A stretch of 64,000 nt of DNA from Prochlorococcus marinus XMU1408 (lineage in GTDB: Bacteria > Cyanobacteriota > Cyanobacteriia > PCC-6307 > Cyanobiaceae), in NCBI RefSeq assembly GCF_003208055.1, contig NZ_QJUE01000005.1, forward strand, positions 124,001-188,000, written 5' to 3'. The translations under genes and the position numbers were made by a program. Under the pieces are notes generated by a model. The model searched no databases and was not told the origin of the DNA. It worked only from the letters and a program-made list of their open reading frames with translations. Below are positions 51,930-54,817 of the stretch, one piece after another (position 1 is the first letter of the stretch; every line of letters starts with the position of its first letter).

Positions 51930-52382
51930 CTAAAAAGATATAGCTGTTTGATCTAAATATGTAATCAAAGGATCATATAAATTGTGGAATAAACTACCAG
52001 TAAAAGAGAAAAGATATGCTAAACCACTTAATAAGCCAAGGAAAATAAAATATCTAACATAGCCATTTCTTCTTTTTAACTTAATAACTGAAAAAATCAT
52101 AATAAACAAGAAAAGTAAACCTATTAATTCTGAAAAAAGCAACGATGACTTATCAACCACTAATTCAAAATTGCTTACAAAAAGCAACTCGTTTCCTGAT
52201 ATATTATTTTTAAATAATATCAAGTTAATTATTTCAGAAAAAATAAGACTAGCAATAAGAAAATACGAAACTGGCTTTGTAAGCCTATTCATTGTTTTTC
52301 CAAAGCTCAATAAAAGAACTGCTATAGAAAGAGAAGCAATTATTGGAATCCCAGGAATCAACCAAGTAAGATTTAATAGCAT
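51930..52382 (-). CDS. Stand-alone NdhF/NuoL N-terminal-like membrane protein
   Basis: A membrane protein of about 150 residues with four to five hydrophobic segments. Its text strongly recalls the first 150 residues of NdhF of NDH-1: TWLIPGIPIIASLSIAVLLL, SFGKTMNRLTKPVSYFLIAS, a Val-Asp-x-Ser-Leu-Leu-Phe region and NGYVRYFIFLGLLSG. The proton-channel domain that follows in NdhF (over 400 more residues) is absent. It may be an NdhF fragment kept as a separate small protein. Start ATG 52382 (the TTG at 52391 would overlap the upstream stop). Resemblance is from memory. Confidence 0.6.
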   Translation of the reverse strand: MLLNLTWLIPGIPIIASLSIAVLLLSFGKTMNRLTKPVSYFLIASLIFSEIINLILFKNNISGNELLFVSNFELVVDKSSLLFSELIGLLFLFIMIFSVIKLKRRNGYVRYFIFLGLLSGLAYLFSFTGSLFHNLYDPLITYLDQTAISF

Positions 52383-52387
52383 GATTT

Positions 52388-52501
52388 TCAAATAAACTTC
52401 CTTGCATGAGCAAACTTAAGTTCTTTGATCAATTCTAGAAGGCCAAGAATAATAAGAACAATAGAAACTAATGAAAAGATAATTAGAAAAGCATTATTCA
52501 T
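52388..52501 (-). CDS. 37-residue single-span membrane peptide
   Basis: ATG 52501 to TGA 52388 gives a 37-residue peptide with one hydrophobic segment (FLIIFSLVSIVLIILGLLEL, residues 5-24) and a basic tail (LKFAHARKFI). It lies directly upstream of the NdhF-like gene, the two being separated by 5 bases if that gene starts at 52382, so they may be co-translated. No family recognised; could be a small subunit or a chance ORF. Confidence 0.4.
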   Translation of the reverse strand: MNNAFLIIFSLVSIVLIILGLLELIKELKFAHARKFI

Positions 52502-52678
52502 TATTTGAAAACGTATAATATTTTTCTAGCAAAGAAGTGTTCCTTAAACAAGCTATTAATTAATAGTAAAACAAAACTTAATAAGAAAAAGATATATTTT
52601 AAATATATCAAAACTTTTTCTTTATTTTCAAATTAACCGCATAAATAGCTAATATAGATTTTAAGATTTGATTTAAGT

Positions 52679-52869: not shown

Positions 52870-53163
52870 ATGTCTGACATTGATTCAGAAATCAATAATC
52901 AAAATATAAATTCAGAGACAGGTAATATGAAAGAAATCGAACCCGTAAATGATCCTAAACAAAATGATCAAAGTCCAAACCTGAGTTCATATCCTAAATG
53001 GATTAACAATAAAGGCGAAGAAGTAAAACAAGTTTTTGGTTTTAATGAAAATGCTGAACTGGTTAATGCCAGAGTTGCTATGATTGGTTTTATAATGCTT
53101 ATACTTACTGAACTAGCTTTTGCTGGAGAACCAGCAACTCAGAAAATTTTTGGGATTAGCTAG
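52870..53163 (+). CDS. hli: High-light-inducible (Hli/CAB-like) protein
   Basis: Hli proteins are one-helix relatives of plant light-harvesting proteins that bind chlorophyll and carotenoid and protect newly made photosystem components. The core is FGFNENAELVNARVAMIGFI near residues 58-77, with the Glu, Asn and Arg ligands of the ExxNxRxAMIGF box, then MLILTELAFAGEPATQ. The first 45 residues are an acidic, Asn-rich extension that is longer than in most Hli. Start ATG 52870; TTG 52810 and ATG 52927 are alternatives. 98 residues. Confidence 0.9.
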   Translation: MSDIDSEINNQNINSETGNMKEIEPVNDPKQNDQSPNLSSYPKWINNKGEEVKQVFGFNENAELVNARVAMIGFIMLILTELAFAGEPATQKIFGIS

Positions 53164-53214: not shown

Positions 53215-53427
53215 ATGAGTAAAAAAACATTAGTTGGTATTTCGTATGTATCCGCTTGGATAATTATTTGGGGAACAATTGGTTCCCTAATTGATTTTTA
53301 TTTCCTTCAAAATACATATCTTCCAGGCTCCTTAGGGCAATTTCTAACTTTTATAATTACAGCTATCATCTCATTAATAGTGGCTATATATATATTTCCC
53401 ATAATAAATAAGAAATTTGTAAGTTAA
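53215..53427 (+). CDS. Two-span small membrane protein
   Basis: A 70-residue protein with two hydrophobic segments (ISYVSAWIIIWGTIGSLIDF near 9-28 and FLTFIITAIISLIVAIYIFP near 43-62) and a short loop with NTYLPGSLGQ. It ends in KKFVS. Its stop overlaps the convergent neighbour's stop by 4 bases. No domain recognised; the conserved look of the loop suggests a real gene. It is in the same orientation as the Hli gene, 51 bases downstream. Confidence 0.5.
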   Translation: MSKKTLVGISYVSAWIIIWGTIGSLIDFYFLQNTYLPGSLGQFLTFIITAIISLIVAIYIFPIINKKFVS

Positions 53428-53666
53428 TAACGGTAACGTTTAATAACTTCTGAAGGTTGCTCATTAATCCCTTTCCTATATAAGAGCCATTGGTTTGTTT
53501 CAAGATCATGGTCACAACCAAGATCCTCTAATTCGACAGATTTCAACCTCATTTCATAATGGCATTGCTGATCAGCCTCAAAGGCTGACTTATAGCCAGT
53601 AAATAAGTAGAAAAATCCAAAAACTAGTGCTATTAAAGATATAAGCGCAATAGTTAACTTCATCAA
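53424..53666 (-). CDS. Secreted or anchored 80-residue hypothetical
   Basis: The protein has an N-terminal hydrophobic segment (TIALISLIALVFGFFYLFTG, residues 4-23) and a soluble domain with two cysteines (QQCHYEMRLKSVELEDLGCD, residues 34-53) that may pair in the periplasm or lumen, followed by NQWLLYRKGINEQPSEVIKR. The ATGATG start lets either Met 1 (53666) or Met 2 be used. I do not recognise a family. Confidence 0.55.
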   Translation of the reverse strand: MMKLTIALISLIALVFGFFYLFTGYKSAFEADQQCHYEMRLKSVELEDLGCDHDLETNQWLLYRKGINEQPSEVIKRYRY

Positions 53667-53718
53667 CTAAAAATAAATTATTGATTGTATTAACTATGAT
53701 AATAGAAAAAATAAAGAT

Positions 53719-53901
53719 TTATAATTTTTTTTCTGTTTCTAAAGGTATTTCGCATTCAGTTAAATCTTGATCATTCAAACGATCTAATATACGTACCATA
53801 TCTATAGAGGAAAGCTCACCATTAGCCCCCCATTTAAGAGTTGTCTTTCTTTGTTGTGGTATTTTTATTGTTTTTTTAGCATCATTTTTCTTTTGTACCA
53901 T
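53719..53901 (-). CDS. Small basic hypothetical protein
   Basis: A short soluble protein of about 60 residues from ATG 53901 (frame open to 53928). It is lysine-rich at the N-terminus (VQKKNDAKKTIKIPQQRKTT) and has a helix-like second half (SSIDMVRILDRLNDQDLTEC) ending in an acidic tail. Not recognised. It could bind nucleic acid, but nothing in the sequence proves this. Confidence 0.45.
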   Translation of the reverse strand: MVQKKNDAKKTIKIPQQRKTTLKWGANGELSSIDMVRILDRLNDQDLTECEIPLETEKKL

Positions 53902-54068
53902 TTCTACTAACTGCCTGTTTAAAAACATTAGAGTATTGGACTCGAATAAAAAAATCCTATAAAATTTTCTTATTCATTCTTTACTTTTATTTTCTCTTTA
54001 GTAGTATTTTCCTATTTTAAAAAGTTAAAATTTCATCTATTTGATTTAAAATCTAGGATTTCTTACCA

Positions 54069-54344
54069 TTAACCACGACCAAAATTGTAAATAAAGTCTT
54101 GAAACGAAGGGCTATAAAAGTAAATAAGTACACTGATAACTAATACAACATTCAAACCAATTACTATTGAACCTATAATAACTCTTTGACGTTTACCAGG
54201 AACTTTATATTTCAAGCCAGCTGGCAGATTGACTAATACATCTGGATCTTGAGAGCTTGATTTCTTAAATTTATTTCCTTTGACCTTGTCAGTCTTAATT
54301 GCCTTATCATTAGTTTTTTTGGAATTAGAAGCTTTAGAGCCCAT
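54069..54344 (-). CDS. Single-span small membrane protein with lysine-rich N-terminus
   Basis: A 91-residue protein with a lysine- and serine-rich N-terminal 45 residues, then VNLPAGLKYKVPGKRQRVII and one membrane segment (GSIVIGLNVVLVISVLIYFY near 58-77), ending FQDFIYNFGRG. The pattern is that of a membrane-anchored protein with a cytoplasmic basic head. No domain known. It is one of several small membrane proteins clustered between 51.9 and 54.8 kb. Confidence 0.5.
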   Translation of the reverse strand: MGSKASNSKKTNDKAIKTDKVKGNKFKKSSSQDPDVLVNLPAGLKYKVPGKRQRVIIGSIVIGLNVVLVISVLIYFYSPSFQDFIYNFGRG

Positions 54345-54490
54345 GTTCTTAGTTAGAATAAATTCTTTAAATTTGTTGTTCTAAGCTTACTTATATAAAT
54401 CAAATAAAACCTATTTTGTTCTAGTTTTTCACATTATTTTCTTTACTGAAACAAAAGTCAAAATGCATGTTCTCAATTTATCGGTAACCT

Positions 54491-54817
54491 CTAGCAATAT
54501 TTCTTCACAGCCTGAATAATATCTTTAGTATCATTTATTTTAAAATTAGAATTAATGATCATTATTAAATTAGCTTCCAAACCAAGTAATCTAGTTTGAC
54601 AAGAAAACTTTTTATTCATTGCTGCATATTTTTGATAGTTATTTATTTTAATTAATGCTTCATTACAAGATTCAATATCTCTATGACAACTCCTTACTAG
54701 CATATCAATTACCAGATAATCAATTGATTCAAAAGCACTTAGGGGCTTAAAAGGTAAAAATAAATATATTAGAAAAATGAATAAAAATTTTATTTTTTTC
54801 AAGGAATAAATATTCAC
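54491..54817 (-). CDS. Secreted small cysteine-containing protein
   Basis: The 108-residue protein has a clear signal peptide (KIKFLFIFLIYLFLPFKPLS, residues 8-27, with SAF as a likely cleavage site) and a mature part containing four cysteines (SCHRDIESCNEALIKINNYQ, then KFSCQTRLLGLEANLIMIIN and a terminal KKYC), which could form two disulfides outside the cytoplasm. No family recognised. Confidence 0.5.
   Translation of the reverse strand: MNIYSLKKIKFLFIFLIYLFLPFKPLSAFESIDYLVIDMLVRSCHRDIESCNEALIKINNYQKYAAMNKKFSCQTRLLGLEANLIMIINSNFKINDTKDIIQAVKKYC

Follow-up and report, generated by a model that had tools for sequence, protein, structure and literature searches.

A Selected, Prochlorococcus-Specific NdhF1 Head and Its Possible Role on NDH-1

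Introduction

Prochlorococcus is the sea's most abundant photosynthetic cell and has the smallest genomes among free-living phototrophs, in which a dead duplicate would be unexpected. NDH-1 carries both cyclic electron flow and respiration. In the window (the whole 64,000-nucleotide stretch of P. marinus XMU1408 analysed here, part of a 377-kb contig in a 1.80-Mb genome), a short protein resembling the beginning of NdhF is encoded next to an even shorter reading frame, and an earlier note, made from the sequence alone, read it either as an assembly or regulatory factor of NDH-1 or as a decayed duplicate that kept its expression. What does a free NdhF head do in such a genome, and is it still a working gene?

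Homology and Predicted Fold of the Head

The NdhF1-head coding sequence lies at 51930..52382 on the minus strand (ATG at 52382, stop at 51930-51932) and encodes 150 aa, while with an alternative upstream TTG start the open reading frame has 153 codons. The layout is TM1, a stromal loop, TM2, a beta-hairpin, TM3, a loop, TM4 and a short C-terminal helix. The TM1-TM2 loop carries the motif SFGKTMNRLTKPV (52269..52307, minus strand; family form SFNRTMNRLTKPV), and the TM3-TM4 loop carries R..GYVRY (52050..52073, minus strand), which is nearly invariant in the head family.

The head is homologous to approximately residues 1-132 of NdhF1. The NdhF1 of the same genome (a 681-aa frame) matches it in tblastn over residues 6-122 with E = 1.2e-9, the NCBIfam PRK07376/NdhF1 model matches it with E = 8e-10, and a PDB sequence search returned T. 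elongatus NdhF (6hum_F, E = 1.1e-4). All 30 aligned family members match the NdhF1 model (best 6.7e-30); Pfam PF00662 alone gives the head 16.6 bits, under the cut-off of 24.5. The AlphaFold2 model (input of 30 family members, mean pLDDT 89) predicts four long helices, the second and third of them separated by a hairpin, followed by a short helix at the C-terminus, and when it was used as a Foldseek query the top seven matches were all T. elongatus NDH-1L NdhF chains, with TM-scores of about 0.70-0.76 (by query length), while VIA-align against 6hum_F gave a best Z of 17.4 over 150 residues. The N-terminal resemblance to NdhF proposed in the earlier note is thus borne out by sequence, profile and predicted structure alike, with a significant match in the profile search, and its remark that the frame ends before the proton channel is confirmed, as the frame stops after TM4 in the source genome and near the same point genus-wide. 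A weak third match in the same genome (C2:721202-721519, E = 0.048, with internal stops) was judged to be due to chance.

NdhF1 is the distal antiporter-like subunit of NDH-1L (NuoL/ND5 family), and the head shares with it the order of TM1-4, the hairpin, the loop motifs and the predicted N-terminal fold. Unlike NdhF1, the head is a separate gene of Prochlorococcus only, and it has neither the second half-channel nor the TMH5 Glu, the TMH12 charged residue or the long C-terminal helix. It is already known from bilaterian ND2, which has no TM1-3, that the TM1-3 module is separable from the antiporter-like channel core; ND2 lost this module, whereas the head is the module alone as its own gene.

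Occurrence in Prochlorococcus

Among 41 sampled genomes of the source strain's genus, the head is present in every one that is at least 90% complete (17/17), and of the 151 genomes surveyed across the family, 28 high-quality ones contain a second NdhF-like match that is short and are read as Prochlorococcus, a reading that leans on NdhF1 position and on the scan of named genomes. Large Synechococcus/Cyanobium-type genomes showed the full NdhF1 only, with one fragmented exception (G087), and of the 80 loci retained from the named collection, 79 belong to Prochlorococcus. The head is therefore Prochlorococcus-specific and present across the main lineages of the genus, G087 aside. The 80th locus, a 5.6-kb contig assigned to a Pelagibacteraceae MAG (NYVZ01000003.1), encodes a Prochlorococcus-type head and is probably a binning error. 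Carriage by phages was dropped as an idea, since the viral contigs searched gave no match.

No description of a stand-alone NdhF head was found in the titles and abstracts searched, with incomplete coverage that included few subscription papers, which agrees with the earlier note's comment that it knew of no described system of this type.

Origin of the Head and Loss of the Pump

The 150-aa head-family profile matches NdhF1 proteins at 1e-22 to 1e-39 and NdhF3/F4 weakly or not at all, and in the trees the heads form one clade beside NdhF1, apart from NdhF3/F4 (100/95*, 100/98*), although, because of long branches, these trees do not decide whether the heads branch from within Prochlorococcus NdhF1. 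An origin from NdhF3/F4 is ruled out by the profile scores together with the tree. A frameshifted or split full-length NdhF was likewise rejected, because neither the window nor any of the loci read has a TM5-16 piece after the head, and also because a full NdhF1 sits elsewhere in the genome.

The heads come in two lengths. In the MIT9313-like clade (including G071) the head has 301 aa, with 52% identity to NdhF1 and 87-89% identity within the clade, other forms of about 290-302 aa occur in scattered lineages (L030, L192, L193, L237 and L242), and in the remaining lineages the head has about 140-157 aa (TM1-4). The key proton axis of such subunits consists of the TMH5-TMH7 Glu-Lys pair plus TMH8 and TMH12 residues (PMC10396290). 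In all seven long forms aligned (alignment A6), the TMH5 Glu of the NdhF1 sequence FWELVG is replaced by L, V or F; L030 has V there. The 150-aa forms end before TM5 and so have no TMH5 Glu-TMH7 Lys pair. From ORF lengths and alignments, the heads are without the two half-channels (TM4-8, TM9-13) and the long lateral helix. Since the Glu is lost in the long forms and channel parts are absent, the heads are taken to be pump-dead.

Long and short forms are interspersed on the tree, where parsimony requires 2-3 switches in length, and this suggests repeated shortening to TM1-4, with a number of events that is unsure because of long branches. A duplicate of ndhF1 thus first became a form of about 300 aa, without the second half-channel and without the TMH5 Glu, and most lineages then shortened this form further to TM1-TM4 (about 150 aa), probably more than once.

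In the family-wide survey, NdhF1 is the only full-length NdhF type in genomes with a head, and nearly all Synechococcus-type genomes sampled (G044 being an exception) carry 1-2 further NdhF-type genes. NdhF3 and NdhF4, which belong to the NDH-1MS variants for CO2 uptake, are NdhF paralogues in picocyanobacteria as the head is, but they are of full length (about 620-660 aa), form a separate clade (100/100*) and were not found in head-carrying genomes. Prochlorococcus seems to have acquired the head at its base, where NdhF3/F4 also seem to have been lost. To hypothesize, a device that varies NDH-1 composition could replace the lost variants if the head were a competitive placeholder, filling the NdhF1 site or an assembly intermediate and so limiting the complexes with a distal pump. 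A predicted fold equal to the NdhF1 N-terminus, in forms that are all pump-dead, would suit such a role; however, the heads keep the elements of NdhF-NdhD contact (the hairpin and the long C-terminal helix) only in degenerate form or not at all, and we regard the placeholder as quite unlikely.

Selection on the Head

The head is kept by purifying selection. Its median dN/dS is 0.18 over 274 pairs from the source strain's genus and 0.19 over 187 pairs from another group, read as high-light; the MIT9313-like clade gives 0.21-0.27. Of the eleven positions that do not vary in 30/30 family members, six (T, N, R, L, K and P) belong to the TM1-TM2 loop.

The head is therefore not a decaying duplicate. 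The loss of the channel and the variable length could be expected of a decayed gene with retained expression, and in L031 (G116:C11), one single-cell-type genome, a stop, which may be a sequencing error or a real loss, shortens the frame to about 120 aa. Against decay stand the dN/dS of about 0.2, the invariant motif, the presence of the head in all high-quality Prochlorococcus genomes sampled, and the search for stop-codon decay in sister strains, in which nearly all genomes had no internal stops; the usual signs of a pseudogene are not seen, neither a dN/dS close to 1 nor stops or frameshifts among relatives. The low dN/dS foreseen for relatives in the earlier note was thus found, and its decayed duplicate is extremely improbable as the present state of the head, while an origin from a duplicate that lost its pump stands. 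Taken as an evolutionary description, a head that is NdhF1-derived, Prochlorococcus-specific, pump-dead and selected is strongly supported.

Genomic Context

A promoter-like site, TTGAAA-18-TATATT (52602..52631, minus strand), a consensus match only, lies upstream of the small frame that precedes the head. The divergent neighbour at 52870..53163 (plus strand) is a high-light-inducible-like gene, which many low-light lineages keep in linkage with the head; it is context and not part of the head unit. The low-light order is HU, several small ORFs, the high-light-inducible-like gene, the small frame with the head, glycosyltransferase genes, a cobD-like gene and ilvC, and in the group read as high-light the head is at a different location. 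In the window, the small ORFs between the high-light-inducible-like gene and HU (53215-54817) encode 70, 80, 69, 91 and 108 aa, and this run keeps its order in many low-light lineages.

In the loci read, no NDH-1 gene adjoins the head, and its commonest low-light neighbour is the high-light-inducible-like gene. Both facts favour a head that works outside NDH-1, as a docking or scaffold protein of another thylakoid complex (e.g., photosystem I or the Pcb antenna), and so does the poor conservation in heads of the hairpin that touches the neighbouring complex I subunit. This alternative is nevertheless unlikely in our view, because the best-kept stretch of the head is a loop that is conserved in Synechococcus NdhF1 and fades in Prochlorococcus NdhF1.

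The Reciprocal TM1-TM2 Loop Pattern

In the NuoL-type topology the TM1-TM2 loop is stromal, and TM1-3 lie outside both half-channels. The loop motif SFNRT[IV]NRL[RK]KP is fully intact in 14/18 Synechococcus NdhF1 proteins, with few exceptions, and the same motif (SFNRTxNRLxKP) is intact in 6/19 from Prochlorococcus, where drifted loops read SFNDLFNRSRKPV in the source genome and SINKKINNSREIV in G017. We scored retention over the 217 NdhF1 columns conserved in Synechococcus, in twelve-residue windows of residues 1-300. Prochlorococcus NdhF1 retains 96% of these columns on average and is lowest in the windows starting at residues 27-31 (0.77-0.79), and the window starting at 28 has the top retention for heads, 0.81, where Prochlorococcus NdhF1 has 0.77. 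Synechococcus NdhF1 and the heads both keep Thr32, Arg35 and Leu36 without exception (100%), whereas Prochlorococcus NdhF1 keeps Thr32 in 42% and Arg35 and Leu36 in 68%. The TM2-TM3 hairpin is the least-conserved part of the head, though it is a subunit-contact element in complex I.

This reciprocal pattern, which is the new element of this study, looks like a division of labour after duplication, although the drift of the NdhF1 loop tracks phylogeny and may reflect few independent events. Reciprocal conservation of the loop points to an original partner shared by the head and NdhF1. In the MIT9313-like clade and some other lineages the NdhF1 loop is intact and the head is present too, and therefore the hand-over is incomplete there.

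Proposed Role of the Head

Based on the loop pattern, the head probably took over the role of the stromal TM1-TM2 loop of NdhF1 (SFNRTxNRLxKP), a role we infer to be docking or assembly on NDH-1; once this role had moved to the head, the loop of NdhF1 itself would be free to drift. The head would then serve NDH-1L as an accessory subunit or as an assembly or docking factor. The earlier suggestion of an assembly or regulatory factor of NDH-1 is plausible and gains indirect support from the loop hand-over, and we lean slightly towards a head that serves NDH-1 in docking, assembly or regulation. The best explanation of the locus as a whole is an NdhF1 paralogue, now an accessory or docking factor of NDH-1L, with a coupling leader ORF upstream, to which we give a probability of roughly 0.55. 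If true, Prochlorococcus has relocated one function of a core complex I subunit to a separate gene. A head gene that is genus-wide implies an NDH-1-related function not yet described, and the reciprocal loop pattern makes the role of the antiporter-like TM1-3 module, apart from the channel, directly testable.

The Upstream 37-Codon Frame

Directly upstream of the head and on the same strand, as the earlier note described, lies the 37-aa, single-span frame pep37 (52388..52501, minus strand), whose stop is 5 nt before the ATG of the head. In other lineages the stop often overlaps the start of the head (TAATG), and several deep lineages have an ORF of 36-37 codons immediately upstream of the head, with the consensus MD.ILP...G....LA..GLREL.KEL....K. 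pep37 is real, ancestral and coupled to the head.

The amino acid sequence of pep37 behaves differently from that of the head. In the source strain's genus its pooled pN/pS is 1.17 versus 0.25 for the head, with values of 0.29-0.69 in a subset that includes the window's own sub-clade. The open frame is kept in 15/16 drifting copies, against 3-6 expected under a simple neutral simulation (the strains being not independent), from which we infer that translation of pep37, rather than its product, is conserved in most strains of the genus. No match to pep37 was found in three genomes read as high-light (G017, G067 and G095), and in G071 it is frameshifted (L214, upstream of the 301-aa ORF), being intact in the relatives L213 and L215.

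Most strains of the genus keep the frame open but let the sequence drift, so pep37 is not a required partner. The "small partner" of the earlier note is therefore sustained as far as ancestry and coupling go, but not as a conserved product, given the drift in most strains and the missing matches in the high-light-like genomes searched. A two-component membrane complex with pep37 and head as obligate partners would agree with the ancestral adjacency and the coupled or overlapping stop and start in several deep lineages, and with the constraint in the window's own sub-clade, but the head stays where pep37 drifts, is frameshifted or is unmatched, which makes such a complex very doubtful. Instead, pep37 may act as a translational leader: in the source strain's genus it would mainly couple translation to the head, and some lineages may additionally use its helix for packing against the head or an adjacent helix of NDH-1. 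The full proposal, in which the NdhF1 docking loop was transferred to a pump-dead head as a genus-wide new NDH-1 component and the upstream ORF is a sequence-indifferent leader in most strains, is offered tentatively, at somewhat less than an even chance.

The single-span NDH-1L subunits NdhP and NdhQ both touch NdhD and NdhF in cryo-EM structures (PMC6992706, PMC7021789). pep37 resembles them in size and in its single helix, but a link in sequence was not found: pep37 profiles and single sequences, which are very short, gave no NDH chain at E<=10 in the PDB, only chance matches. Membership of a Pfam family was discarded, as there was no match. Low-light genomes also encode relatives of pep37 at other sites, in small ORFs that stand alone (L150-L167, e.g., L150, L157, L158 and L160), with the consensus ME.ILPLA.G....LAL.GIRELLKE.
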